From contig NCBJ01000001.1 in assembly GCA_002255585.1 (NCBI GenBank), positions 1-49,986 on the forward strand: DNA of 49,986 bases. Reading direction: 5' to 3'. Position 1 is the first letter of the stretch; every line of letters begins with the position of its first letter. The notes below the pieces were generated by a model. The model was not told the origin of the DNA and ran no database searches. It saw only the letters and a list, made by a program, of their open reading frames with translations. Of this stretch, positions 7,983-38,863 are shown piece by piece. Both the position numbers and the translations under genes were made by a program. The DNA comes from Parcubacteria group bacterium 21-54-25. Its GTDB lineage: Bacteria > Patescibacteriota > Minisyncoccia > Phycocordibacterales > Phycocordibacteraceae.

Positions 7983-10021
7983 GCGACGTACCGCGTATAA
8001 CCTGTCACAACCATCATCAGAACGAGCACGGTGCGCATACACACTCAGGAGGTCACGGCATGGGACACGGTTCGGCGCAGAGTTATTTGCGCCGCTTCTG
8101 GATCGTCACGGCGCTTCTCATTCCGCTCGCGCTCACCAATCCGCCCGTCGCGGCATTCCTGCACATTCCACCACTCGCGCTCGGGCCGTGGATACAATTC
8201 GGTCTTGCGACAATCATCTTCGGCTTCGCGCTCGTGTTTTTCCAACATGCGTGGCACGAGATAAAGGCCCGCGCGTTCGGCATGATGACACTCGTCTCGC
8301 TCGCGGTTGGTGCGGGCTACGCGTTCTCCGTCGTGGCGACCTTCGTCCCCTCGCTCGGCGTGCAGTTTTATCTTGAAATCTCCACGCTGGTCTGGGTGCT
8401 CCTCTTCGGTCACTATCTTGAAGCGAAGTCGAGCTCGGCCGCCGGTGACGCGCTCGCGGAAGTGGCTAGGCTCTTGCCGAAGCAGGCACACAAGCTCGTG
8501 AATGGCACCCCGACGGAAGTAGACATAGCCGAACTCAAAGAGGGCGACACTGTGCTCGTGAAGCCGGGGGAGAAAATCCCGGCAGACGGTGAGGTCGTCG
8601 ATGGACTCTCGAACGTGGACGAATCGCTCGTTTCCGGCGAATCGAGACCGATCGAAAAACAGAAGGGCGGCAACGTCGTGGCAGGTTCCATCGCGCTCGA
8701 CGGCGCACTCACCGTGCGTCTCTCGCGTGTCGGCGAGCACTCTACTATCGGTCAGATTCAGTCGCTCATAGCCTCGGCGCAAATGACTAAGCCGCGTCAG
8801 GCGCGCATCGCCGACACCGCCTCGGCTGTCCTCACCTTCGCCGCGCTCGGTGTCGCGCTTCTCACGCTCTTGGTATGGACCCTTGTAATTGGCCAACCGT
8901 TCGCCTTTGCAGTCACGCTCGCCATCACCGTGCTCGTTATCGCCTGTCCGCACGCGCTCGGACTCGCCATTCCGACCGTCACGACCATTGCCACCTCGCT
9001 CTCGGTGAAGAATGGTGTCTTCATAAAAAATCTTGCAAAGATAGAGACGATACGAAAGGCGGATTATGTGGTCTTCGATAAAACCGGCACGCTCACCAAA
9101 GGCACGTTTGGCGTCACGGGCATCGAATCATTCGGCGACGTCTCAAAAGACGACGTGCTTCGTATCGCCGCCTCGCTTGAACAGAATTCATCGCATGTGA
9201 TCGGAGCGTCCATTGTCGCGTATGCAAAGAAGCGAGACCTATCGCTCGCGCCAGTGAGCGACTTCGAGAATCTAGCAGGCAAGGGCATCCGAGCAACTGT
9301 GGACGGCACTCGCTACGCAGTTGGCAACCGAGCGCTCGTAGAGGAGTCACACGTTCCGCTCGACGAAGCTACGTCCGCGTTCGAGCGGTTCTCCAAAGAC
9401 GGTGCGACAACAGTGTTCGTTTCCGACACAAAGCGCGTCCTTGGTCTTATCGCGCTTGCGGACGAAGTGAAGCCGGAGTCAAAGGAGACGGTGCGGAAGC
9501 TCCACAACCTCGGCCTCAAGGTCGCTATGCTCACGGGCGACAACGAGCAGGTTGCAGCCGCCGTTGCCCGCGAACTCGCCATAGACACTCACTTCGCACA
9601 GGTGCTTCCCGAGGACAAGTACGCCCGTATCAAAGAGCTCCAGAAGAAAGGAAATGTCGTACTGATGGTGGGCGACGGCGTGAATGACGCCCCCGCTCTT
9701 ACCCAGGCCGACGTGGGTATCGCCATCGGCGCGGGCACGGACGTGGCGGTCGAAGCGGGAGACGTGGTGCTCACGCGAAGCAACCCGGGCGACATCGTGC
9801 GGCTCATCATCCTCGCCCGAGCCGTATACGCGAAGATGCTTCAGAATCTCTGGTGGGCCCTTGGCTACAATATTCTTGCCATCCCAGCAGCCGCGGGCGT
9901 TTTCGCCGCATGGGGATTCTTTCTGCGGCCCGAAATCGGTGCGCTCCTCATGAGCGCATCTACGGTCGTTGTTGTTATGAACGCGATGAGTCTTCGTCGT
10001 CTTAATCTGGAGCGCGCGTAA
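7979..10021 (+). CDS. copB: CopB-like heavy-metal P-type ATPase (P1B, CPH motif)
   Basis: A 680-residue membrane pump. It has a His-rich N-terminus (HNHHQNEHGAHTHSGGHGMG), eight predicted membrane helices, the actuator (VSGES near residue 215), the transmembrane metal motif C323-P324-H325 and the phosphorylated Asp367 in DKTGTLT. The hinge motif GDGVNDAP and a C-terminal pair of helices follow. CPH in helix 6 marks the CopB (P1B-3) class, which exports copper or silver. The usual HP dipeptide of the nucleotide-binding domain is replaced by SSHVIG, as in some CopB proteins. No frameshift is seen, unlike several neighbours. It should be induced through CsoR. Confidence 0.92.
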   Translation: MSDVPRITCHNHHQNEHGAHTHSGGHGMGHGSAQSYLRRFWIVTALLIPLALTNPPVAAFLHIPPLALGPWIQFGLATIIFGFALVFFQHAWHEIKARAFGMMTLVSLAVGAGYAFSVVATFVPSLGVQFYLEISTLVWVLLFGHYLEAKSSSAAGDALAEVARLLPKQAHKLVNGTPTEVDIAELKEGDTVLVKPGEKIPADGEVVDGLSNVDESLVSGESRPIEKQKGGNVVAGSIALDGALTVRLSRVGEHSTIGQIQSLIASAQMTKPRQARIADTASAVLTFAALGVALLTLLVWTLVIGQPFAFAVTLAITVLVIACPHALGLAIPTVTTIATSLSVKNGVFIKNLAKIETIRKADYVVFDKTGTLTKGTFGVTGIESFGDVSKDDVLRIAASLEQNSSHVIGASIVAYAKKRDLSLAPVSDFENLAGKGIRATVDGTRYAVGNRALVEESHVPLDEATSAFERFSKDGATTVFVSDTKRVLGLIALADEVKPESKETVRKLHNLGLKVAMLTGDNEQVAAAVARELAIDTHFAQVLPEDKYARIKELQKKGNVVLMVGDGVNDAPALTQADVGIAIGAGTDVAVEAGDVVLTRSNPGDIVRLIILARAVYAKMLQNLWWALGYNILAIPAAAGVFAAWGFFLRPEIGALLMSASTVVVVMNAMSLRRLNLERA

Positions 10022-12610: not shown

Positions 12611-14695
12611 ATGAGCCTCGAAAGCTTCGCTGCCGTTAACCCCTCAAAACCTAATGGTTTTGAAAACAAAGGACAAGATGAGATTCTTGGTGGCTTCTCT
12701 GAAGCGGAGCGGGCTGACATCTTGCATAAGCAAAAAGTTCTTTCCTCACTCGGATACTTCATCGGCAAGGATTTTGATATGCCGATTTTGCTCAATAAGC
12801 CGGGAGCTGGCTGGCACTGGAATTTCAAGGAGAATCACATCAAGATTGACCCGAAAGATCTCCTTGAGAAATCGCTCGACTATCTCCGTTTCGTCATTTC
12901 GCACGAGGGCGGACATCGACGCATCAGCCGCACCGATTTCATTCCCGAAGAGGTATGGCAGCAACCCGGTTTCTCGTTCATGATGAACGCCGTCGAAGAT
13001 CCGCGTGACAACAACTTCGTCGCCGAAGCGTACCCGAAATTCCGCGAGCAGATGAATGTCGCGTACACACTCGACACGCAATTTGAAGAAGAAGCGAAGA
13101 GTGCAGCAAAGACGAAACTCGGCACGGTACCTCGATTCCTTCAGGCCGGACACGAATACATAAAGCAATGGTTCAATGAGGCGAATGGCAAGCCGTTTGT
13201 GATTGACGAATCCTTGCCAGAGGATGTGCGCGCGGCGGTCGAGAAAACGCTCACCGCAGCGCAAGAATCGTGGTGGCGATACCCCTCGAAGGACGAGGCT
13301 GATAAGAGCGAGAAGCTGATCTCGCAGTACGCGGAGGCTTCATACCGCATAAACCTCGAAAAGATATGGCCAGAATTTAAGAAGCTTGTTGATGAAGACG
13401 TGAAAGACCAGCAGACAAAGAAAGCGCTCGATGACATGCAGAAATCGCAGGAGCCGCAGGAACCCGGCGAAGGAGAAGTCGGAGAGAAGGGCGAACCCCA
13501 ACAAGGAAACGGCATACCGCAAGAACTCAAAGACAAGCTCACTCCAGAGGAGGCACAGGAACTCGGCGAGAAAATGGAGGCGGCACAAGGCGAAGGTGGC
13601 GAGCCCAGCACCATCGATCCGGCGTCACTTTCGCCGGAACTCAAAAAGAAAATCGAAGAATATGTTGAATCTTTGCCACAAGACGTGAAAGACGAGCTTG
13701 AACACCGAGCGAAAGAAGCGATACGTGAACTTGAAGAGGAGATAAACAAGGCAATTCGAGCGAAGATCGCTGAAGACAAGGAAGGAAGGCCCGAGTCTCC
13801 AGAGCAAACAACGCCAGCAGAAACTCCAAGCAAGCCTTCCGAGCATCCAGCAGATGAACCTGACGTTAGTGGGGTGCGCGATACCCTCGAGTCGCTTCTC
13901 GCACCGAGCCCTGAAGCATACGACACCGTCATGCGTGAAGTGTTACCACTCATCAATCGGCTCGAAAATGATCTGAGGGAGATTTTCGTCGCACGACAAG
14001 CACGGGCGTGGGATTCGGGTCATAAGTTTGGGAAGAAGATAGACTTGAAACGTCGTATTCAAGAAAAAGCGAAAGACGTCTCCGCCTTCGAGAGTCGTGC
14101 GTGGCAGAAGCGCGAAGCGCCATCAGAAAAAGACTACGCCATCACGCTTCTCGTTGATCTCTCCGGCTCCATGCGCGGGACGAAAATCACCGAAACTTTC
14201 AAAGCGGTTGTCGTGCTCGCCGAGGTGCTGAATGCGCTCTCTATCAAAACAGAGATTCTCGGTTTCAATGATCGTATTCATGACTTCCAAGATTTCGGCG
14301 TCCGACTCACTGACGCATCGCGCCGTGAGATGGGCGCTATGCTTGAAGAAGTCGATTCAAGTCGTGCGCGGTACAACGATGACGGGTGGGCACTCAAAGA
14401 AGCATCCGCACGACTCGCACGAGAAAATGCCGAGGAGAAATTCCTCATCGCGTTGTCCGATGGCATTCCTGCAGAATCAGGTGCGCACAGTGGGGCCGAG
14501 TTTGATCTGCATAAGGTTGTCAAGGAAATTCTCGAAACGACCGATCAGAAACTCGTCGGACTTGGTATCGGAAGCGGCACTGAACACGTGTCGGGATACT
14601 ATCCCCACAGTCTTGCGGATGTTCCAGTCAAAGAAATGGCTGAGAAGCTCGCAGATCTCATCCGCGACGTGATTGCAAATTACGAGGATTTCTAG
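12611..14695 (+). CDS. Zincin-like/VWA domain protein of a MoxR-VWA pair
   Basis: I start at ATG 12611 (MSLESFAAVNPSKPNGFENK). A TTG start at 12533 adds residues without family features, and a CATACT box lies close before the ATG. The N-terminal domain has HEGGH at residues about 98-102 and a downstream NAVEDPRDN, which could supply the third ligand of a zinc metallopeptidase-like fold. A long Glu/Pro/Lys-rich low-complexity linker follows (about 270-450), then a VWA domain with the MIDAS motif DLSGSM near residue 516. VWA proteins paired with MoxR ATPases (RavA-ViaA, NorQ-NorD, CbbQ-CbbO) act as substrate adaptors for remodelling. Here the ATPase lies two genes downstream and carries a DGR variable domain. 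Confidence 0.85.
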   Translation: MSLESFAAVNPSKPNGFENKGQDEILGGFSEAERADILHKQKVLSSLGYFIGKDFDMPILLNKPGAGWHWNFKENHIKIDPKDLLEKSLDYLRFVISHEGGHRRISRTDFIPEEVWQQPGFSFMMNAVEDPRDNNFVAEAYPKFREQMNVAYTLDTQFEEEAKSAAKTKLGTVPRFLQAGHEYIKQWFNEANGKPFVIDESLPEDVRAAVEKTLTAAQESWWRYPSKDEADKSEKLISQYAEASYRINLEKIWPEFKKLVDEDVKDQQTKKALDDMQKSQEPQEPGEGEVGEKGEPQQGNGIPQELKDKLTPEEAQELGEKMEAAQGEGGEPSTIDPASLSPELKKKIEEYVESLPQDVKDELEHRAKEAIRELEEEINKAIRAKIAEDKEGRPESPEQTTPAETPSKPSEHPADEPDVSGVRDTLESLLAPSPEAYDTVMREVLPLINRLENDLREIFVARQARAWDSGHKFGKKIDLKRRIQEKAKDVSAFESRAWQKREAPSEKDYAITLLVDLSGSMRGTKITETFKAVVVLAEVLNALSIKTEILGFNDRIHDFQDFGVRLTDASRREMGAMLEEVDSSRARYNDDGWALKEASARLARENAEEKFLIALSDGIPAESGAHSGAEFDLHKVVKEILETTDQKLVGLGIGSGTEHVSGYYPHSLADVPVKEMAEKLADLIRDVIANYEDF

Positions 14696-14707: not shown

Positions 14708-15112
14708 ATGCATACTTTGAGCTCCATCGGTGAATTCTTGTCCCGGTCGCTTTCTCAGAAAGAGGTTTCTCTCGTCATTATCCCATCGGAGGATTCTATG
14801 AGCGATGCACTCCAAGCACTTGAATCGAACGGGTTCTCTCCTTTCAAAAAGTTCGGTGATCTCGAACGGGGCGGCAAGCATTACTTCATTGTTGATGCTT
14901 CGAATGCAAAGACGGCATACGATCTTGCGCGCGAATACGGCACCGGGCAGATTACACATTTCAATAGCGCGACGGGCACTCCTGCATGGACAACGCCCAC
15001 CTACAAAGATAGCGCCTTCGTGCTTGTCATCGTGAAGAGTGATCTTGTTTCGGCAGAAAGTGCCGGACTCGACCTGCTCTCTGCAAGCGGTCTCGCATCT
15101 CAATTCGCATAA
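14708..15112 (+). CDS. Unknown 134-residue protein between the VWA and AAA+ genes
   Basis: A small soluble protein (MHTLSSIGEFLSRSLSQKEV), mixed alpha/beta, with no motif I recognise. It lies 12 bp after the VWA gene and 3 bp before the AAA+ gene, so it is probably co-transcribed with both. A TAATCT box just before its ATG could give a separate leaderless transcript. The position between the two partners of a MoxR-VWA system suggests an accessory subunit or adaptor, which is inference only. Confidence 0.7.
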   Translation: MHTLSSIGEFLSRSLSQKEVSLVIIPSEDSMSDALQALESNGFSPFKKFGDLERGGKHYFIVDASNAKTAYDLAREYGTGQITHFNSATGTPAWTTPTYKDSAFVLVIVKSDLVSAESAGLDLLSASGLASQFA

Positions 15113-15115
15113 TCT

Positions 15116-17191
15116 ATGGCTTCTCACGAGAAATTTCCATCAAGAGCTAAGCCGAAAGAAGAGCTCGTGCCCGTGCACGATACTGAATTATCAGTCGCCT
15201 ACCTCGGCGTCGAATTGCCGAAAGCGACCGATAGTGAAAATGCGCCCAAGAAAGAGCAGTATGCTGACTACATAAATGATCGCTTCTCGCTAGAACTTCA
15301 GAAAAAGATAGCCACCTCGTGGAAGCAGGGCGACCCTATACTTATCGAAAGTGGTACCTCGATTGGTAAAACCACTACGGTGAAGAAGATGTGCGCCGAC
15401 CTTGGTTGGGAGGTTCACTATGTGAACCTAAACGGAGCGACCGATGTTGAAGATTTCATGGGTCGCTATATTCCGAACCATGAGCGCAAGAGTCCGGACG
15501 ATCCAGAATACGTATTCTCTGATGGTAAGATCACGTCCGGCCTGCGACAAGAAGAAGGAAAGAAGAAAGTCATCCTGCTTGACGAATACAACTCGGCTGC
15601 TCCGAACATCCTCATCCGTCTCCATGAAGTCCTCGATGCGCTTGAGAGAAACAGCGAAGTGGTGCTCGCTGAAGATGCTTCGGAAAAGATTCAAGTGAAC
15701 AAGGATGCGACGAAGGTCATCGGCCTCATGAATCCTCCCGGCCGCGGATATCTCCAGCGTGAGCCACTTGATCCCGCGCAGATTCGCCGATGGGTGTACG
15801 TAAAAGAAGCGAGTGAGTTGCCGGACGAGTCACTCACACACGCGACCCGAGCGCTTTTCCATCTCGAAGATAAAACCGAAAAGGTCGAGGACTCGGTCTA
15901 TCTCTTTGCTAATGAAGCCGCACTCACCCCAGAGCAGTTTAAAGAGATTCCCGGCATTGAAACCATCCTTACCAAGTATCTCGAGTTCCACAAAGGCGCG
16001 AAGGAACTTCTTGCCAGTCGCCGCATCGCCAAAGATCAGCCGCAGCGGTTCCTCTTCGATGACCGAGAAGAACCAAAGCGCGTGCGCGACTTCATCTCTG
16101 CTTTCTATCGCGGCGATATTAACGCGACCACTCAAGAAGCCCTCCGTTACTACTATGCCAACAAACTTCTCGAGCCAGAAGACAAGGAAGCGCTTGAGGA
16201 GTTGATCCGTACCGTCGAGTACGTGCCACCACAGAATACGAAACGACGAACGCTCGATGACATAGAACAATTCGGACAAGAAGGAGCTCCAGAGACATGG
16301 GACAAAGTTGCTGAATTTGAAGACAAACTTGCCGCTAAGATTTCTGACCTAGAAAAGGAGCTTGGTGTTCCGTCCAGCGAAGCTAGAGATGGTCTTGAAC
16401 TCTCGCTTGCCGATGCAGAGAGGATTCTTGGTAAAGAGTCGGTGCTCGGAGCGAAAGACGTAGAGCAAGTCTTCGGTATCAAGCTGGATCGAGCGCCAGC
16501 CATTCCATTTTCACAAGAAGAATTGCAACGCGCCAAGGAACTCGGTCAACAGCTTATCCTCCAAGTCGATACGATGCTACACAAAGCAAGTGGTCTCATG
16601 TCTCGCGAGAAGAGCGTGCCGCTCACTCTTGAAAGCCTCAAACAGAAATTCACAAAATCACACGACGATAAGAAAGTCTTCTACGAACAGGATTGGTACA
16701 AGGACGAGGACTTCTTCAAGAAAGAGAAGCCACGTGTCGGTTGGCGACTCACCTCTAGAGATCTACTCCCCGAGTCAACTTCAAAGAGCTACCTTGAGCA
16801 GACCGATGTGCTCGTTGAACATTTGCAGAAGCAAGTCTTCAAAGGTACAAAACTTCCGAAGCAGTACGAGGACGCCATCGCCGAATTTAAACGCAAGCGA
16901 GCAGAAAGCGGCACAGATTCGGAGTGGAAACGTGGCTCACAGATGCTCGCGGATCTTGCAATCACCAAGCTCGCTCGTGAGTTACCAGTCGAAGCAATGT
17001 ATCGCTTTATACTAAATGATCAGGCTCACAAGGATAAACCCCTCCCTTCAACCTACACCTGGACAGCGAGTCGCACGTCTGGCGGCAGCCTCGTGTTTGT
17101 CGGCAACTTCGATGCCGAGGGCACGCGTGTGGACGGGAATGAGCCGAGGTATTCGCACAGCCTTCTCGGTGTCTCGTTCTCCCGCAGTTGA
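15116..17191 (+). CDS. MoxR-type AAA+ ATPase fused to a DGR-diversified C-terminal domain (variable protein 1)
   Basis: A 691-residue protein. The N-terminal ATPase has Walker A G80-TSI-GKTT86, Walker B VILLDE (D156, E157), a sensor region IGLMNPPGRGY and an arginine-rich segment DPAQIRRW, typical of MoxR/dynein-like ATPases. From about residue 435 it is closely similar to the downstream 323-residue protein (IPFSQEELQRAKELGQQLIL, then DEDFFKKEKPRVGWRLTSRD). It ends in a C-type-lectin-like tail LGVSFSRS. The last 42 codons are VR1, which differs from the template repeat almost only at template adenines. The protein thus couples ATP-driven remodelling to a hypervariable binding surface. It lies 3 bp after the preceding gene. 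Its binding target is unknown. Confidence 0.9.
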   Translation: MASHEKFPSRAKPKEELVPVHDTELSVAYLGVELPKATDSENAPKKEQYADYINDRFSLELQKKIATSWKQGDPILIESGTSIGKTTTVKKMCADLGWEVHYVNLNGATDVEDFMGRYIPNHERKSPDDPEYVFSDGKITSGLRQEEGKKKVILLDEYNSAAPNILIRLHEVLDALERNSEVVLAEDASEKIQVNKDATKVIGLMNPPGRGYLQREPLDPAQIRRWVYVKEASELPDESLTHATRALFHLEDKTEKVEDSVYLFANEAALTPEQFKEIPGIETILTKYLEFHKGAKELLASRRIAKDQPQRFLFDDREEPKRVRDFISAFYRGDINATTQEALRYYYANKLLEPEDKEALEELIRTVEYVPPQNTKRRTLDDIEQFGQEGAPETWDKVAEFEDKLAAKISDLEKELGVPSSEARDGLELSLADAERILGKESVLGAKDVEQVFGIKLDRAPAIPFSQEELQRAKELGQQLILQVDTMLHKASGLMSREKSVPLTLESLKQKFTKSHDDKKVFYEQDWYKDEDFFKKEKPRVGWRLTSRDLLPESTSKSYLEQTDVLVEHLQKQVFKGTKLPKQYEDAIAEFKRKRAESGTDSEWKRGSQMLADLAITKLARELPVEAMYRFILNDQAHKDKPLPSTYTWTASRTSGGSLVFVGNFDAEGTRVDGNEPRYSHSLLGVSFSRS
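17063..17188 (+). repeat. DGR variable repeat VR1
   Basis: This 126-bp segment at the 3' end of the AAA+ fusion gene aligns without gaps to the template repeat at 18515-18640. By eye, 18 positions differ. Seventeen fall on A in the template (changed to G, C or T). The exception is template G at 18611, where VR1 has A. The 3' invariant block TCTCGGTGTCTCGTTCTCCC (17164-17183) is the presumed initiation site of mutagenic homology. Confidence 0.9.
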
Positions 17192-17225
17192 TTTTTGAGC
17201 TATGAATTATGATCTTTTGAGTCTT

Positions 17226-17248
17226 CCCCGACCCGTTTAGGGGCGGGG
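17226..17248 (+). other. Hairpin downstream of VR1
   Basis: CCCCG/CGGGG and CCC/GGG arms enclose the loop GTTTA, about 40 bp after the end of VR1. A hairpin with the same loop and a different outer stem follows VR2 at 18286-18306. Such stem-loops just past the VR promote retrohoming in the best-studied DGR. The T run after it would also let it work as a terminator. Confidence 0.6.
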
Positions 17249-17266
17249 CTCTCGAAAATTTTTTGC

Positions 17267-17272
17267 TATACT
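17267..17272 (+). promoter_or_regulatory. -10 box of variable protein 2 (leaderless type)
   Basis: TATACT lies seven bases before the ATG at 17279, preceded by a T-rich run and TG. Transcription would begin at or next to the start codon. No Shine-Dalgarno sequence is present. The same arrangement, TTTTGCTATAGT, lies before the TR transcript. Confidence 0.65.
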
Positions 17273-17278
17273 ACACCC

Positions 17279-18250
17279 ATGTCCGAAGGCTTCCCTAAAA
17301 CCGCAACAAAAACGCCCGAACAGCAGCTTATACAGTTGAGGGAGCTTCAGCATTCTCTAGCCGAAGCAAGGGAAACGCAGGATGCCCCGGCCGCAGAAGC
17401 GCTTATGAAGGACAATTGGGATCTAGTCTTCTCTCGTGAGACCGAAGGTCTATCTTTCGAAGAAGTCGAACATCTCCTCGGTAAGGACTTTTTCGGTCCT
17501 AAGGCAGTTGAGAAGATTTTCGGCGTGAAGCCAGAAACTGTTCCTGATATTCCATTCTCAAAAGAGGAACTGGAACGCGCCAAGGAGCTCGGTCAGCAGC
17601 TTATCTTTTACACTGATTTCATGGCGGGGAAGGCCGGGTCAATCGGGCCAGTTACGCTCGAAAATATGAGAACAATTTTCACAAAGTCACATGATGGTGA
17701 GAAAGTTTTTGCTAGTCATGGCTCTGATGATTTCTGGTATAAAAACGAGGACTTCTTCAAGAAAGAAAAACCACGCACGGGATGGCGACTCACCTCAAAG
17801 GATCTCATTCCAGACTCGACTTCAAAGAACTATATCGAACAGACTGACGTGCTCGTCGGGCATCTTCAAAATACAGTCTTCAAGGGTATGGAGCTCCCGA
17901 GGCAGTATGCAGACGCAATCGCAGAATTCAATCGCAAGCGAGCGGAGATTAAGCCTCTCGCGGAGAGCTCAACCGACGCAGAATGGAAGAAAGGTTCACA
18001 AATGCTCGCTGGCCTCGCAATTACCAGACTCGTGCGCGAGCTGCCAGTTGAGGTCATGTATCGTCTTGTTCTCAATGATCAGCAGAATAAGGATAAGCAG
18101 CTCCCCTCAACCTACACCTGGACAGCGGGTCGCACGTCTGGCGGCCCCCTCGTGCGTGTCGGCGACTTCGCTGCCAAGGGCACGGATGTGTACAGGGCTG
18201 GGCCGGGGGATTCGGGCGGCCGTCTCGGTGTCTCGTTCTCCCGCAGTTGA
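17279..18250 (+). CDS. DGR variable protein 2 (stand-alone diversified domain)
   Basis: A 323-residue paralogue of the C-terminal part of the upstream AAA+ fusion. The two share blocks throughout, such as FSKEELERAKELGQQLIF, EDFFKKEKPRTGWRLTSKD and STYTWTAGRTSGG, and both end LGVSFSRS. It has no ATPase domain; residues 1-60 form a charged helical region. Residues about 282-323 are encoded by VR2, in which all differences from the template fall on adenines. The most variable codons correspond to AAC/AAT in the template. It probably works as a diversified binding partner or alternative receptor in the same system. No signal peptide is visible, so a cytoplasmic role is likely. Confidence 0.88.
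   Translation: MSEGFPKTATKTPEQQLIQLRELQHSLAEARETQDAPAAEALMKDNWDLVFSRETEGLSFEEVEHLLGKDFFGPKAVEKIFGVKPETVPDIPFSKEELERAKELGQQLIFYTDFMAGKAGSIGPVTLENMRTIFTKSHDGEKVFASHGSDDFWYKNEDFFKKEKPRTGWRLTSKDLIPDSTSKNYIEQTDVLVGHLQNTVFKGMELPRQYADAIAEFNRKRAEIKPLAESSTDAEWKKGSQMLAGLAITRLVRELPVEVMYRLVLNDQQNKDKQLPSTYTWTAGRTSGGPLVRVGDFAAKGTDVYRAGPGDSGGRLGVSFSRS
18122..18247 (+). repeat. DGR variable repeat VR2
   Basis: A 126-bp segment aligned without gaps to the template repeat 18515-18640. By eye 23 positions differ and every one is an A in the template (A to G, C or T). The flanks just before and after are shared with VR1 but not with the TR. This shows that the two target genes arose by duplication of the whole 3' region. 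Confidence 0.9.
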
Positions 18251-18285
18251 TTTTTGGGTATTGACTCATGAGTCTTTGAATCTTT

Positions 18286-18306
18286 GCCGACCCGTTTAGG
18301 GGCGGC
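18286..18306 (+). other. Hairpin downstream of VR2
   Basis: GCCG/CGGC and CCC/GGG arms around the loop GTTTA, at the same distance after VR2 as the 17226-17248 hairpin is after VR1. The outer stem differs on both sides while still pairing, which suggests the structure is kept. It is absent after the TR, as expected of a target-only signal. Confidence 0.6.
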
Positions 18307-18514
18307 ACTCGAAAATATTTTGCTATAGTGAGCATACGGCTAATGAAGCGAATGTTTACGGACTTCGCTCGCCGCAAAAACACTGCTTGTCCGCCATTAG
18401 TGCAATCGGTTGAAGTGATGGGACAGTGCGCGCATCCTATACCCCGAATCAGCCGGAACCCGAGTCTTCTTGAGAAGCATTCGCGAACTGGCGAAGCCAC
18501 GGACGATGGCGGGC

Positions 18515-18640
18515 AAAACGAGTCGCACGTCTGACGGCAACCTCGTGAATGTCGGCAACTTCGATGCCAAGGGCACGAATGTGAACAGGAATGAGCCGAG
18601 GAATTCGAACGACAATCTCGGTGTCTCGTTCTCCCGAAGT
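18515..18640 (+). repeat. DGR template repeat (TR)
   Basis: Invariant copy matching VR1 and VR2. It is unusually rich in AAC/AAT codons in the frame shared with the VRs (NLVNVGNFDAKGTNVNRNEP and onward), so adenine mutagenesis hits surface residues. The 3' end reads CCCGAAGT where both VRs read CCCGCAGT. At 18611 it has G in a GAC codon where VR1 has A and VR2 has G. Confidence 0.92.
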
Positions 18641-18643
18641 GTT

Positions 18644-18667
18644 CCCCGCCTACGAGGCGGGGTTTTT
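18644..18667. terminator. Terminator of the TR RNA, shared with avd
   Basis: CCCCGCCT, the loop ACG, AGGCGGGG and then TTTTT. It ends the TR transcript on the plus strand. The avd stop codon (18650-18652) lies inside the hairpin on the other strand. Confidence 0.85.
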
Positions 18668-19022
18668 CGTACTCTTAATCCATCCGCCTATCATTTTGCC
18701 GATCTCAACGACCTGTTCAGACAAAGATGCGAATCCAGCATCGTTAATGCTCTTCGTTTTGTATGCGAGTCGCAAGTGGGTCGTGAGCATTTTGAGCATG
18801 ATGTCTGCTTTGTTAAGTATCAAAAGTCGCGATTGTCCCTGCTTGCTTTGGGCGAGGTAGAGTGTCTCGATTAGATCGAGGGTAGTCGTTTCTATTCTCA
18901 CGCCGAGTGTGTACCGTTCTGGCTTTTTGAACTTCAGTACACGTTTATGTGCAGCAAGATATAATTGACTCGTCTTATGAAAAATAACCGGCTCGGCAAA
19001 ATCGGGGGGGGGGGGGATTCAT
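18650..19022 (-). pseudogene. avd: DGR accessory protein Avd, antisense to RT start, frame broken by C13 tract
   Basis: The frame reads FAEPVIFHKTSQLYLAAHKR, then KPERYTLGVRIETTTLDLIE and finally SEQVVEIGKMIGGWIKS. This is the four-helix Avd pattern, including the typical EIGxMxGGWIK ending. Avd forms a positively charged pentamer that binds the RT and template RNA. The natural start would be ATG at 19020-19022 (M-N-P-P-P-P-D-F), but the C tract between it and the body has 13 bases, which puts ATG one base out of frame. With 12 it would be intact at about 123 residues. A shorter GTG start at 18901 would lose the first helix. It is convergent with the TR and divergent-overlapping with the RT. 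Confidence 0.8.
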
Positions 19023-20044
19023 GCGAATATCTTTGAGCATATCATCTCGAAAGAAAATCTGTTCGCTGCATGGCGTGAGTTCCAGAAAGGAAAGATGGGT
19101 AAAGAGGATGTGCTCGTATTCTCTGAACACTTCGAGAAGCATCTCTTGTCTCTCCATTCTGATTTAGTTAGGGGAAAATACAAGCACGGTCCGTACACAC
19201 GTTTTCTCATCCAGGATCCGAAGCTGAGACATATTGCCAAGGCAAGCGTGCGAGATCGCGTTTTGCACCACGCCATTTGCCGAGTCATAGCGCCGAGTTT
19301 CGACCGAGCGTTCATATTTGATGCGTATTCGAGCCGGAAGACCAAGGGCGTACATCGAGCGATTGAACGTCTCCAATCTCTCGCACAAAAGCTCTCGCGG
19401 AACAACACGCAGACTGTGTGGGCGCTCAAGTGCGATGTACGGAAATTCTTTGACAGCGTCGGACATGTTCGCTTGCTTGAGCTGTGTGCACGGCGCATTC
19501 GTGATGAAAGGGTTATGGCGTTACTGAAAGATATTCTCGGCAGTTTTGAAACGAAGCAAGGGAAGGGTATCCCGCTCGGCAACCTTACCTCACAGCTTTT
19601 CGCCAATATCTATCTCGACCCTCTCGACCAGTACGTGAAGCGAGAACTCCGCGTGAAGAACTATCTCCGGTCTTTATACTGTTATCCCGCGATCGCTCCG
19701 AGCTCGGGCGTGTTTTGTCACTCATACGTGATTTTCTTTCACAGGATCTCGGTTTGGATCTGCACCCTACCAAAGTATTTTTTCGAAAATGGCATCAGGG
19801 TGTCGACTTTCTTGGATATGTACACTTTCCGTACTACCGAGTCCTGCGTACGAAAACGAAGAAACGGATGTTCCGCAAATTAGAGAAACGACGAGAGGAA
19901 TTTGAAACTGGGCACATAGAAGACGACAGTGGTTTACGTCAGACCGTCGCATCGTACCTTGGTGTCCTGTCGCATTCTCGGGGCAGAGGACTGGCGAAGC
20001 GCATTCGTCGCGATTTCTTGCCGAGCGTTGATGTTGATAAATAA
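18977..20044 (+). pseudogene. DGR reverse transcriptase, lacking YxDD and frameshifted twice
   Basis: This is a DGR/group II-like RT by its motifs: DPKLRHIAKASVRDRVLHHA, FDAYSSRKTKGVHRAIERL, KCDVRKFFDSVGH (first catalytic Asp), GIPLGNLTSQLFANIYLDPL, then GVDFLGYVHFPYYRVLRTKT and KKRMFRKLE. A TATAAT box at 18960-18965 precedes ATG 18977. Two lesions are present. The G13 tract at 19004-19016 shifts the start out of frame. At 19670-19673 the sequence goes from VKNYLR straight to FILLSRD with two spare bases, so ten bases covering the YxDD motif are gone. As written it cannot polymerise. Without the lesions it would be about 360 residues, normal for the family. Confidence 0.88.
19004..19016. other. 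G13 homopolymer in the overlap of RT and avd 5' ends
   Basis: Thirteen G on the plus strand lie nine codons into the RT and three codons into avd on the other strand. A length of 12 (or 9, or 15) puts both genes in frame. The length given puts both out. The tract could be a slippage site or a sequencing error. Confidence 0.85.
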
Positions 20045-21967: not shown

Positions 21968-22753
21968 CTACCGTCCAAGTCCAGCATAAACCTCTGCTGA
22001 AAGTCGAGCGATGGTCAGCCATCCTGGATTATCCGGCTTGTAAGACACCATCGGGAGATCTTTCGAGAAGATCGCAATGACGTACGGTTGTTTAGTGAAC
22101 ACAATGCCGATGTCGTTACGGAGGCGGTCGTGCGACCCGCCCTTGTTGGCGGTTTCGAGCTTCGCGCCATCGCGTCGGGTATAGGGTAGTAGTCGCTTAA
22201 TGCCGAGTTGATTTTCGCACTCTTTCATGATTTGTAGCAACAGATCTGAGTGCTCTCGATTCAGATAGCGTGCGCTGTATATCCCCTCAAGCATGACCGC
22301 CATCTCTCGAGGGGTTGTAGCGCCAAAATCGAAATCGTCATCCTTGATACCGAGCTGAGTTTTTTGAAAACCAAGGGACGTTAGGTAATTGTTGATTTTG
22401 TCGGCGCCGTGAGCCTTCACCAATAGGTCCGCCGCAGTGTTGTCAGATACCGTCAGCATAAGGACGACAAGGTCTTTGAGCGTAAGCTCTACCCCGGGCG
22501 TCAGCCGTGACAGCACCCCTGAACCCGGCTGGTAATATTCAGCCGAAACCACAAATCTATCCTCAAGACGCGCTCCGTTCGTCTCGACGAGATATAAGAG
22601 ATACAGGGCAATTGGAACCTTGCCCACACTTGCGGCACGAAATTCCCCGTTAGCGTTATGCTCAAAAAGGAAGCCATTTCCAATTGGCTTTACGGCGGCT
22701 CCCCAGATGCCATCCGCTTTCCTCAGAATCTCATTTATCTTGTCTGTGTCCAT
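21968..22753 (-). CDS. Class A beta-lactamase-like serine hydrolase, cytoplasmic form
   Basis: A 261-residue protein with the three active-site signatures of the class A beta-lactamase/penicillin-binding fold: S42-VG-K45, S103-DN105 and TANKGGS in place of KTG. The omega-loop glutamate of true beta-lactamases is not obvious, although a TTPREMAVML segment occupies that area. There is no signal peptide (it begins MDTDKINEILRKADGIWGAA), which argues against a periplasmic drug-hydrolysing role. It may act as a peptidase or esterase. Substrate unknown. Confidence 0.85.
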   Translation of the reverse strand: MDTDKINEILRKADGIWGAAVKPIGNGFLFEHNANGEFRAASVGKVPIALYLLYLVETNGARLEDRFVVSAEYYQPGSGVLSRLTPGVELTLKDLVVLMLTVSDNTAADLLVKAHGADKINNYLTSLGFQKTQLGIKDDDFDFGATTPREMAVMLEGIYSARYLNREHSDLLLQIMKECENQLGIKRLLPYTRRDGAKLETANKGGSHDRLRNDIGIVFTKQPYVIAIFSKDLPMVSYKPDNPGWLTIARLSAEVYAGLGR

Positions 22754-35314: not shown

Positions 35315-38300
35315 ATGGAAGACGCGCCGCAGTCTGAAACAGCAAAGCGAGAGGAGGAAATACTCGCGTTCTGGGAAGAGCACCACATTTTTGAGAAATC
35401 ACTTGAGAAGCCCTCCCCAAAGGGCGAGTTCACTTTTTATGACGGCCCGCCGTTTGCCACCGGCACGCCGCACTACGGACACATCGTCGCGAGCGTCATG
35501 AAAGATGCCGTGCCGCGCTACAAGACCATGCGTGGGTATCACGTGCCGCGGGTGTGGGGCTGGGACTGTCACGGTCTTCCGATAGAGAACATCGTCGAAA
35601 AAGAGCTCGGCTTTAAACACAAGAAAGACATCAAGGCGTACGGCGTTGAAAAGTTTAACGAGCGATGCCGTGCGCAGGTGCTCATGTACGTGGACTACTG
35701 GAAAAAATTCATTCCACGCATCGGACGTTTCGTCGACATGGAACACGCGTACCACACGATGGACCACACGTTCATGGAGAGCGTCTGGTGGGTATTCAAA
35801 CAGGTGTACGACAAGGGTCTTGTGTACGAGGACTACCGCTCCATGCACATTTGTCCACGTTGCGAAACGACGCTTTCGCAGCAAGAGGTAGCGGAAGGGT
35901 ACAAAGACGTGAAAGACATCGCGGTGACGGTGAAGTTTAAAGTAGCGCCAGGGCAGAAAATAGGGAATGAGTTTGTGGCGGACGATAAAACTTTTGTTTT
36001 GGCATGGACAACGACCCCTTGGACTCTCCCTGGTAATGTGGCGCTTGCTGTCGGAAAGGACGTGCAATATGAAGCGGCGAAACTTCCTAACGGCGAGACA
36101 TACATATTTGCGTTCGAACTTGCAAAGAAAATCGAAGGGATTAAAGAACACATGGATTCAGGCCGTGAGTTCAGCAAGAACACATGGTTCTTTAAGGGCG
36201 ACGATCTCGTCGGTCTCGAATACGAACCGCCATTCGACTACTACAAAAAAGACACGGAACTGAAGGATCGAAAAAACGGATGGAAGGTGTATGCCGCTGA
36301 CTTCGTCACGACCGACACCGGCACCGGCATTGTGCACATCGCGCCAGCATTTGGCGAGGATGACATGGCACTCGGTAAAGAAAAAGAACTACCATTTGTG
36401 CAGCATGTCAGCTATGACGGCACGATGCGTCCAGAGGTCACGGATTTTGCCGGCAGAGAAGTGAAGCCGCGCTCCGACGACGATAAGGTGCGCCTCGGTA
36501 CCGACATCGATATCATCAAGTACCTCCAGGAGCACGGCGCATTCTTCTCTAAAGAGAACTTAGTGCATTCCTATCCGCATTGCTGGCGTTGCGACACGCC
36601 GCTACTGAACTACGCGACGACGTCGTGGTTCGTTTCGGTAACCAAACGCAAGAACCAGTTGCTTGAAAACGCAAAGAAGATTACTTGGTCACCGGCGCAC
36701 ATAAAAGAAGGTCGTTTCGGCAAGTGGCTCGAAGGCGCGCGCGATTGGTCAATTTCGCGCCAACGTTTTTGGGCGAGTGCTATGCCGATTTGGAAAGATT
36801 CAGCGGGAAATATCACCGTTATTGGTTCGGTCGAGGAATTAAAGTGTCACACCAAGACGAGCGGCAATACATATCTCATGATGCGCCACGGCGAGTCGAA
36901 GGGGAATGTTCAAAGAACTTTTGATTCTGGGAATGACCCAACAAATGGCCTCACCGAAAAAGGAAAGACGCAAGTTGATACCGCCGCGGAGCAGTTGAAA
37001 GAGCTGGGTATCACAAAAATGTATGCCTCACCGCTACCGCGAACGAAAGAAACCGCCGAACGTGTAGCGAATCGCCTCGGCATCACAACCGACTCCATTA
37101 TCTATGACGAGCGTCTGCGCGAATTTAATTTTGGCTCGCTAAGCGACAAGAGCAATCCTCACGCGGACGAGACGTTTTGGGAATGGAAGAATGCACATGG
37201 GTATCTCGATCACGCACCAGGAGGTGGCGAGAGTTATTTTGAAGTGAAAAACCGCTTCGGGTCATTCCTCTATGAACTTGAATATACGCTCAAAAACGAA
37301 CGGATACTCATCGTGTCGCATGGCGGCGCGTTTGAATCGGCTGAAGTAGTCCTAAAAGGTGCCGATGTTGCTGCCGCCAACAACATTTTGAATAAAATTA
37401 TCAGTAGCGCAAAAGAAGCGGAGGTGCGCAAACTTGATTTCATTCCACTCCCGCATAACCGCGACTACGAGCTCGACTTGCACCTGCCCTATATCGACCA
37501 GGTACAACTCGTAAACGAGGAGGGCGAGCCACTTACGCGCGTTCCTGATGTGCTTGATACTTGGTTTGACTCCGGCTCCATGCCGTACGCCCAGAAACAC
37601 TATCCGTTTGAAGACAGAGAGCAGTTTGAGAAGACCTTTCCAGCGCAATTCATTGCGGAAGGCGTTGATCAGACGCGCGCGTGGTTTTACTATTTGCATG
37701 TGCTTGGCGGCGCACTCTTTGACATGCCAGCATTTGAGAACGTCATTGTGAACGGTATTGTCGTGTCGCCAGAAGATGGTAAAAAACTCTCAAAGAGCAA
37801 GAAAAATTATCCAGACCCCATGACGGTAGTGGAAAAGTATGGCGCCGACGCACTTCGTTTCTACCTGCTCTCGTCACCGGTCGTGGCTGCTGAGAACCTT
37901 GCGTTTTCCGAAGAGGGTGTTGACGACGTCGCAAAAAAGAATCTCGGCCGCCTCAGCAACGTACTCTCGTTCTACCAGCTTCATGCAGACGGCACCCCCG
38001 CCGCGTCAACGAGCACGCACCTACTTGATCAATGGATCCTGGCGCGTCTTAGTCAGCTCGTCGCTGAGGTAACCGAAGGATATGAACACTACGCACTTGA
38101 TCGCGCTGCGCGACCGATACCGGCGTTCATTGACGATTTGTCCGCGTGGTATGTGCGCCGTTCGCGCGATCGTTTTAAGGAAGATGGTGCGGGGAAAGCC
38201 GCGGCGCTTGCAACACTGCGCTACGTGCTCCGTGAGAGCGCGAAAGTGATGGCTCCAGCTTTGCCGTTTATTGCAGAGCGGATATTTCAGGGAGTAAGAA

Positions 38301-38863
38301 GCGCAGATGACCCAGAAAGCGTACATCTTGCGTCCTGGCCGGAGAGAAGCTCTTCGCCGCTTACGCGCCTTGTGACGCAGGTTACGGGCGACAAAGATGC
38401 CGCGCTGCTTACTGGCATGGCGCGGGTGCGGGCGCTCGCTTCGGAAGCACTCATGTTGCGTCAGAAAGAGGGGATAAAAGTGCGTCAGCCGCTTGCAGCG
38501 CTTGCGGTGCCGGACGCGCTTTCAGCGCCACTCGCTGCAATACTCGCCGATGAAGTGAACGTGAAGCGTGTTGAAACACGTGCGCCGGCACTCTGGCTCG
38601 ATACGCAACGTACCGACGCGCTTGTGCGCGAGGGTGACATCCGTGAATTTACCCGCGCGCTTGCAGAAGCGCGTAAGACCGCAGGGCTTTCCCCGCAGGA
38701 TACGGTACACCTCGTCGTTGAAGAGTCGGCACGAGCACTGCTAATCGACGTGTCGCTTTCCGGCGTCTCAATTCTATCGTTTGCCGCCACTGTCGCTCCA
38801 CCCTATACCGCACCACTTTCTTTTGGCTCAGTGGCGTTTTCGTTTTCACGGCATGCGACATAA
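35315..38863 (+). CDS. ileS: Isoleucine--tRNA ligase with inserted histidine-phosphatase domain
   Basis: An 1182-residue class I synthetase. HYGH (residues 53-56) is the HIGH motif and KLSKS lies near residue 827. The editing (CP1) domain contains TTTPWTLPGNVALAVG. Between GSVEELK (about 509) and the catalytic-core segment ELDLHLPYID (about 718) sits a complete phosphoglycerate-mutase-like domain. It has RHGE (R524, H525), a conserved SPLPRTKETAERVA helix, LREFNFG and the second catalytic histidine in VSHGGA (H669). In ordinary IleRS only about 20 residues occupy this place. The insert keeps all catalytic residues, so it may be active. Its stop codon overlaps recO. Confidence 0.93.
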   Translation: MEDAPQSETAKREEEILAFWEEHHIFEKSLEKPSPKGEFTFYDGPPFATGTPHYGHIVASVMKDAVPRYKTMRGYHVPRVWGWDCHGLPIENIVEKELGFKHKKDIKAYGVEKFNERCRAQVLMYVDYWKKFIPRIGRFVDMEHAYHTMDHTFMESVWWVFKQVYDKGLVYEDYRSMHICPRCETTLSQQEVAEGYKDVKDIAVTVKFKVAPGQKIGNEFVADDKTFVLAWTTTPWTLPGNVALAVGKDVQYEAAKLPNGETYIFAFELAKKIEGIKEHMDSGREFSKNTWFFKGDDLVGLEYEPPFDYYKKDTELKDRKNGWKVYAADFVTTDTGTGIVHIAPAFGEDDMALGKEKELPFVQHVSYDGTMRPEVTDFAGREVKPRSDDDKVRLGTDIDIIKYLQEHGAFFSKENLVHSYPHCWRCDTPLLNYATTSWFVSVTKRKNQLLENAKKITWSPAHIKEGRFGKWLEGARDWSISRQRFWASAMPIWKDSAGNITVIGSVEELKCHTKTSGNTYLMMRHGESKGNVQRTFDSGNDPTNGLTEKGKTQVDTAAEQLKELGITKMYASPLPRTKETAERVANRLGITTDSIIYDERLREFNFGSLSDKSNPHADETFWEWKNAHGYLDHAPGGGESYFEVKNRFGSFLYELEYTLKNERILIVSHGGAFESAEVVLKGADVAAANNILNKIISSAKEAEVRKLDFIPLPHNRDYELDLHLPYIDQVQLVNEEGEPLTRVPDVLDTWFDSGSMPYAQKHYPFEDREQFEKTFPAQFIAEGVDQTRAWFYYLHVLGGALFDMPAFENVIVNGIVVSPEDGKKLSKSKKNYPDPMTVVEKYGADALRFYLLSSPVVAAENLAFSEEGVDDVAKKNLGRLSNVLSFYQLHADGTPAASTSTHLLDQWILARLSQLVAEVTEGYEHYALDRAARPIPAFIDDLSAWYVRRSRDRFKEDGAGKAAALATLRYVLRESAKVMAPALPFIAERIFQGVRSADDPESVHLASWPERSSSPLTRLVTQVTGDKDAALLTGMARVRALASEALMLRQKEGIKVRQPLAALAVPDALSAPLAAILADEVNVKRVETRAPALWLDTQRTDALVREGDIREFTRALAEARKTAGLSPQDTVHLVVEESARALLIDVSLSGVSILSFAATVAPPYTAPLSFGSVAFSFSRHAT

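Follow-up and report, generated by a model that had tools for sequence, protein, structure and literature searches.

A conserved simple-sequence repeat at the avd/reverse transcriptase junction as a probable ON/OFF switch of diversity-generating retroelements in Patescibacteria

How the mutagenesis driven by diversity-generating retroelements (DGRs) is regulated in nature has been called an exciting frontier in a 2026 DGR paper (PMC12875486), and the question is raised by a DGR cassette in Parcubacteria group bacterium 21-54-25, a member of the Patescibacteria (GenBank assembly GCA_002255585.1). The cassette lies within positions 1 to 49,986 of contig NCBJ01000001.1, the whole 49,986-nucleotide stretch that was analyzed, hereafter the window, and in it a run of 13 G residues (G13) sits where the 5' ends of the reverse transcriptase (RT) gene and of avd overlap. 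Is this tract, like the simple-sequence repeats found at the same junction in related Candidate Phyla Radiation (CPR) genomes, a switch? Our reading of the sequences makes it likely that the window cassette is a DGR under ON/OFF control by repeat slippage, that it is OFF here and carries an additional RT lesion, and that such control is common among CPR DGRs, which are mostly OFF. The central features, in window coordinates, are:

17063-17188, + strand: variable repeat 1 (VR1), with 17 of 18 mismatches to the template repeat at a template A
18122-18247, + strand: variable repeat 2 (VR2), with 23 of 23 mismatches to the template repeat at a template A
18515-18640, + strand: template repeat (TR), from ungapped comparison and reading of the sequence
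18650-19022, - strand: avd, with its conserved body at 18650-18991 and its ATG at 19022-19020, beyond the G tract and out of frame as assembled
18977-20044, + strand: broken DGR reverse transcriptase; the G tract splits its start codon from its body, which is frameshifted at 19671
19004-19016, + strand: G13 tract in the head-to-head overlap of RT and avd, the proposed phase-variation (slipped-strand) switch
19671-19672, + strand: deletion of ~10 bp, with loss of the Y-x-D-D codons and a frameshift in the RT; the window has NYLR-tc-FILLS versus NYLRYTDDFILLS in the relative G043 and NYLRYTDDFLLLS in the relatives L248/L339

A preliminary description, whose coordinates ended before avd and the RT gene, had proposed from a hand alignment that one TR aligns without gaps to two VRs differing from it at template adenines. 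A computed ungapped comparison bore this out at the same coordinates and reproduced the counts exactly, the single exception being a G>A change at position 97 of the TR-VR1 comparison; as the template holds 35 A in 126 bases, the bias has a hypergeometric p of 1.5e-10 for VR1 and 9e-17 for VR2. Three A mismatches, at positions 2 and 4 (the left edge) and 123 (CGC versus CGA), are common to both VRs and are probably better taken as repeat boundaries or fixed positions than as mutagenesis; without them the A-site counts are 14/15 for VR1 and 20/20 for VR2. The CGC of the VR versus the CGA of the TR recurs in 6/6 VRs examined, a difference of the IMH/IMH* type (IMH, initiation of mutagenic homing). 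A genome search found TR, VR1 and VR2 to be the sole copies in their own genome. Homologous TR/VR/RT sets, which the proposal led one to expect in relatives, are present there, and the A-bias is repeated at the same targets in G043 (A-site mismatches 16/16 and 20/21) and in the IMG/VR contig L339 (18/20 and 18/18). Reading of the sequence also revealed a potential hairpin or stem-loop after each repeat:

17226-17248, + strand: stem-loop directly 3' of VR1, CCCCGACCC GTTTA GGGGCGGGG
18286-18306, + strand: stem-loop directly 3' of VR2, GCCGACCC GTTTA GGGGCGGC
18644-18668: GC-rich hairpin followed by a T run, after the TR

The L339 counterpart of the VR1 stem-loop is a perfect stem (CCCCGACCC-GTTTA-GGGTCGGGG), and in that of the VR2 stem-loop the stem covaries (TGCTGACCC-GTTTA-GGGTCAGCA).

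The avd product matched Pfam bAvd (2.7e-15, above the Pfam cut-off) and NCBIfam DivGenRetAVD (1.6e-18; 66.9 bits, under the curated 80-bit cut-off), while the RT matched RVT_1 (7.2e-11) and a PHROG RT profile (1.7e-75). Intact RT orthologues are found in L248/L339 (83% at the amino acid level) and G043 (76%), and RT orthologues adjoin TR/VR in many loci. With A-specific TR/VR differences, an RT of DGR type by descent, Avd, and the IMH/IMH*-type difference and stem-loop after the VR, the element is, on this sequence evidence, a cellular Patescibacteria-type DGR with one TR and two VRs. The two-target DGR of the preliminary description and the A-specific pattern behind it therefore stand; what it had missed is that the RT is broken and that, with G13, neither RT nor avd is in frame.

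At the catalytic site, G043 reads NYLR-YTDD-FILLS and L248/L339 NYLR-YTDD-FLLLS; the window has NYLR, two bases, and then FILLS in another frame, and its copy thus lacks the catalytic Y-x-D-D of a working RT. Among 192 loci the RT is open through Y-x-D-D in 184, closest relatives included. The loss looks recent, because the rest of the RT has no stops on either side of the deletion, and the window DGR as assembled reads as a non-functional, recently silenced copy that is a DGR by descent. With a broken RT and neither gene in frame, the TR/VR differences are a record of past activity. A second intact RT in the same genome was sought and rejected, RVT_1 matches being confined to this RT. Separately, contig C7 of the same assembly carries at 95-202 an RT scrap of ~100 bp (L035 in G000). 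The scrap lies at the contig end, joined to fragments that resemble a transposase and a recombinase, and may stem from a chimeric contig end or from a second DGR that was lost.

The two genes are divergent, and their 5' ends overlap head-to-head over the first ~45 bp. The G13 tract lies between the ATG at 18977 and the body of the RT and, on the other strand, between the ATG at 19022 and the body of avd. With 13 G neither gene has an in-frame start; with 12 or 15 G both are open. The closest relatives without a tract start both genes at places corresponding to those assumed in the window (RT MENNRLGE... and avd MTKTATKTF... in L248; RT MKNDRFGK... and avd MIATQQETF... in G043), which lends the window starts independent support. 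Runs of nine or more G (G9+) occur at two places in the 840-kb genome, this tract included. On the RT tree the window groups with the repeat-free G043 and L248, and as it sits inside this repeat-free clade its tract was likely regained at the same site.

To place the tract in a wider context, 194 distinct related RT loci from genus, order, phylum and named CPR genomes were scored for repeats in the ~130 nt that precede the conserved RT core. This revealed a simple-sequence repeat at the junction in 150 loci: 132 poly-G (lengths 7-14, mostly 9-10), 15 GA/AG, and one each of CT, GT and (TTCG)9. The junctions, 19.4 kb in total, hold 129 G/C runs of at least 8, compared with 7 in the remaining 1.197 Mb of these loci, an enrichment of ~1137-fold, and all 129 junction runs are G on the RT-sense strand. 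Repeats are found in 46 of the 52 coded families, with named repeat-bearing records from Uhrbacteria, Falkowbacteria, Moranbacteria, Peregrinibacteria, Nealsonbacteria, Nomurabacteria, Taylorbacteria and Kazan, and in a single-cell genome (L216). No junction repeat was present in any of 55 viral-collection DGRs of other, more distant clades. On the RT tree the repeat was gained or lost at least 20 times, 9 of these changes being forced by well-supported branches, and GA was gained at least 7 times, 4 of them so forced. As differing repeat types thus replace one another convergently at one site, with many independent changes, what is maintained is a repeat as such and not any single motif. Tract length differs between relatives (G11 versus G10 in loci with 84% RT identity); a search for a same-species pair for this comparison found none, the closest repeat-bearing pair being 85% identical in RT.

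Do these repeats set the frame of the genes around them? Alignments and frame scans were based on one Avd and one RT query, and the counts are therefore to be read with the provision that divergent avd genes may be missed. In 130/131 loci at least one frame gives avd an ATG on the far side of the repeat, compared with 41% (maximum 50%) when the flanks were shuffled, and exactly one frame opens avd in 112 of the 131. The predicted Avd N-termini are alike across loci, with a recurrent M-S/T-E...PPP start. Among loci in which the RT too has to be read across the repeat and both genes have exactly one open frame, the same frame opens both in 33 of 34, a coupling that is left without a p-value because it is partly due to the codon-aligned antisense overlap and to shared descent. 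Three hallmarks of a contingency locus are found together: a repeat in the 5' coding region beyond chance, a length that sets the frame, and a length that varies between related genomes.

Most of the genes are OFF as assembled. avd is open in just 25 of the 131 loci; among the 112 single-frame loci it is ON in 15 (p = 2.7e-6 versus one third), and at one locus per family in 11/79 (p = 1e-4), while the RT is in frame in 3/52 loci. The OFF excess persists when GTG and TTG starts are allowed, and it is not readily ascribed to assembly, because random length errors would leave one third of loci ON.

Mutagenic homing of the Bordetella phage BPP-1 requires both RT and Avd (PMC12875486), and a repeat within the overlapping starts of the two genes would therefore act as a single switch of mutagenesis. 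We propose that copying of the TR transcript introduces errors at adenines and that the cDNA would rewrite the ligand-binding-type domains at the C-termini of two paralogous targets, one of these domains being fused to a MoxR AAA+ ATPase predicted to act with a VWA/zincin partner. A slipped-strand change in repeat length would shift the avd and RT frames together, so that one repeat would serve as a heritable, stochastic ON/OFF switch of targeted mutagenesis. Most cells would be OFF and would keep an evolved binding domain fixed, while rare ON cells would diversify it and could later lock the result by slipping back. The window would represent the OFF state (G13), with an RT that additionally lacks Y-x-D-D. 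What the sequences themselves show is the anatomy of the DGR, its lesion, the frame logic, how the repeat is conserved and convergently replaced across CPR, and the OFF excess; slippage in living populations, its effect on homing and a bet-hedging purpose are what we infer.

Several observations weigh against this proposal. No repeat is present in 44 of the 194 loci, the closest relatives of the window among them, and in about half of the repeat-bearing loci the RT has its own ATG past the repeat, so that the switch would act on avd alone. ON states fall short of the one third expected, and tracts one base too long (or two short) are commoner than tracts one base too short, neither of which is predicted by a simple random switch. 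The window copy itself cannot be switched ON again by slippage, because its Y-x-D-D is deleted.

Some of these points would be accommodated if the repeat tuned expression: slippage of RNA polymerase or of the ribosome along the G/C run would yield a little RT and Avd, and so a low, constant activity in most cells. We consider this explanation unlikely but worth keeping in view. It would account for most assembled tracts being out of frame with an excess one base too long and for the persistence of A-biased TR/VR pairs in 77 of the 126 repeat-bearing loci with enough upstream sequence, and non-programmed transcriptional slippage on homopolymers is known (PMC6260861). However, a programmed slip should fix one offset, yet both offsets and ON states occur; moreover, lengths range from 7 to 14, and GA, CT, GT and 4-base units would be expected to slip less readily in transcription. 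Expression tuning and phase variation could also coexist.

That the purine tract is instead a ribosome-binding or other sequence-specific element of the RT, not chosen for its instability, strikes us as very unlikely. G and GA runs do resemble Shine-Dalgarno sequences, and the uniform strand of the junction runs (129/129) would suit such a role, but the site can also be taken by CT, GT or TTCG repeats, the distance from repeat to RT core varies from 0 to ~66 nt, no RT ATG follows the tract in 78 of the 150 repeat-bearing loci, and a binding site has no need of 9-14 identical bases. Finally, although the window genome is a draft of 27 contigs and long homopolymers are error-prone, it is scarcely credible that the cassette is an ordinary active DGR with G13 and the RT deletion both assembly errors, as 150 distinct loci, one of them from a single-cell genome, carry a repeat at this position, 13% of loci are ON where random length errors predict one third, and a 10-bp deletion is atypical of sequencing error in a module whose other frames are open.

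Further observations on tracts and RTs were made among the loci surveyed. L042 (G087 C1:240000-259000, oriented 9463-9480) has a G18 tract inside the RT, in a subclade without the junction repeat; its RT is out of frame as assembled and, of the lengths 15-20 tried, is full length only at 16 or 19 G. L053 (G070) combines an RT with stops and an interrupted tract, GCGGGGTGGG, whereas its 80%-identical relative L057 (G072) has G12; the repeat may decay once the RT dies. CPR-like DGR RTs are also present in contigs filed as Chloroflexota (L165, Anaerolineaceae SURF_68) and Ignavibacteriota (L166, Ignavibacteriae), reflecting either horizontal transfer or the misbinning of CPR contigs. G9+ tracts in genomes of the same genus that gave no RT match were considered as DGRs and rejected, as they lie in or near other genes; several of them (L326, L329, L331, L335 and others of the same genus) are near the starts of genes that frame reading suggests encode a PilC/GspF-like protein, an exported repeat protein, MraY and DnaE. 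Such G9+ tracts at other gene starts hint at further phase-variable genes in CPR.

What would the switch control? The targets and the genes upstream of them are:

12611-14695, + strand: VWA protein that partners the MoxR target; its N-terminal part has a zincin-like HEGGH, and its C-terminal part is a VWA domain of CobT type with DLSGSM, a motif of metal ion-dependent adhesion site (MIDAS) type
14708-15112, + strand: small open reading frame (ORF) between the VWA and MoxR genes
15116-17191, + strand: target 1, AAA+ ATPase of MoxR type with VR1 at the end of its C-terminal domain (Pfam AAA_5, 1.2e-12)
17279-18250, + strand: target 2, a stand-alone protein paralogous to the variable domain at the MoxR C-terminus, with VR2 at its end

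The placement of VR1 and VR2 at the C-termini of a MoxR-type ATPase and a stand-alone paralogue, also part of the preliminary description, was correct; both VR-carrying ORFs are open in the window, and target 2 shares 66% identity with the C-terminal part of the MoxR protein. The ATPase has a Walker A (ESGTSIGKT), kept in 5/5 MoxR proteins checked, and a Walker B (VILLDEY). The VWA protein matched Pfam CobT_C (2.1e-16) and VWA (3.9e-06), and HEGGH and D-x-SGSM are kept in 6/6 orthologues checked. The small ORF had no significant Pfam match and no tblastn match in G043 or L339. A structural model of the variable domain built on a 16-sequence alignment reached a mean pLDDT (predicted local distance difference test score) of 93, versus 51 with six sequences. 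Its best PDB matches were mostly FGE (formylglycine-generating enzyme)/EgtB of the CLec superfamily, with TvpA and Mtd included; none was significant (all E > 0.1), and the compact matches span ~60-80 residues. A CLec fold is the likely, if tentative, assignment for the variable domain. PADLOC gave no confident match for four proteins, the targets included.

The order VWA, MoxR-VR, paralogue-VR, TR and avd/RT is the same in L339, whose RT is intact; the VWA/MoxR-VR set is also found in G043, G279, G400 and G377, in other arrangements or without the paralogue, and the order target-VR, TR, opposite-strand avd, RT recurs across the genus. A DGR acting on an AAA+ remodeller beside a VWA/zincin partner had been singled out in the preliminary description as the unusual part, a view that did not hold up: the layout, with the VR on the MoxR ATPase itself, is found in at least five other CPR loci, and parallels have been published in MoxR-vWA ternary systems of multicellular bacteria with DGR-diversified CLec/FGS domains (Kaur 2020, PMC7159879; Dore 2024, PMC10907252). 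Like those ternary conflict systems, the window combines a MoxR ATPase, a VWA protein and a DGR-diversified domain, and the MoxR ATPase and vWA pair that marks a VMAP MoxR-vWA system is present. Unlike them, it carries the variable domain on the end of the MoxR ATPase and on a stand-alone paralogue rather than on the vWA protein or a separate sensor, and its VWA partner has a zincin-like motif; no VMAP was identified, no VMAP profile having been run directly. The target module is a CPR variant of the known MoxR-vWA-DGR theme, with the VR on the ATPase itself.

What is more unusual about the window is the simple-sequence repeat, conserved in position, where avd and RT meet. The window shares with the BPP-1 DGR (mtd-avd-TR-brt) A-specific TR/VR differences, Avd, RT, a 3' IMH-type difference and a post-VR stem-loop (PMC12875486), but differs in having two cellular targets, an opposite-strand avd that overlaps the RT head-to-head with a repeat, and an RT without Y-x-D-D. 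As in phase-variable poly-G genes of Campylobacter and Neisseria, the repeat lies at or near the 5' coding end and one frame in three is ON (PMC8355987, PMC5084427, PMC11868660); unlike in those loci, the switched genes drive a targeted mutator, not a surface structure, and one repeat serves two overlapping genes. The literature searched yielded no report of phase-variable DGRs, with an earlier mention possible in the 2017 CPR/DPANN DGR paper (Paul et al.). Among the closest published groups is DGR clade 2, which is restricted to Patescibacteria and significantly less active than average (Roux et al. 2021, PMC8144416); the window is similar to it in CPR hosts, cellular setting and targets mostly without recognized domains, and from host range we infer that the window RT belongs to it. 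Low activity would be expected of a population that is mostly OFF; Roux et al. offer purifying selection as another reason (PMC8144416), and their main text makes no mention of phase variation, homopolymers, frameshifts or tandem repeats.

Two further genes elsewhere in the window deserve mention. A class I tRNA synthetase of I/L/M/V type (35315-38863) is unusual in that a histidine-phosphatase domain (PF00300, 1.7e-33) is inserted between its synthetase parts, at residues 521-688, and downstream of the DGR a beta-lactamase-family protein (21971-22753; PF13354, 3.9e-50) is encoded near tRNA-His.

Taken together, the sequences surveyed suggest that across the Patescibacteria/CPR DGR hypermutation is likely to be under contingency-locus control, with heritable, chance-driven ON/OFF states through which a mostly silent population would diversify in bet-hedged bursts. 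If so, RT and avd ORFs of CPR that are labelled pseudogenes in DGR surveys may be OFF-phase genes, and the lower activity of CPR DGRs in metagenomes (PMC8144416) would have a reason. The repeat switch would explain DGR regulation for a large share of CPR DGRs, and would unite two classic diversity mechanisms in one device, a random switch placed on a targeted mutator.

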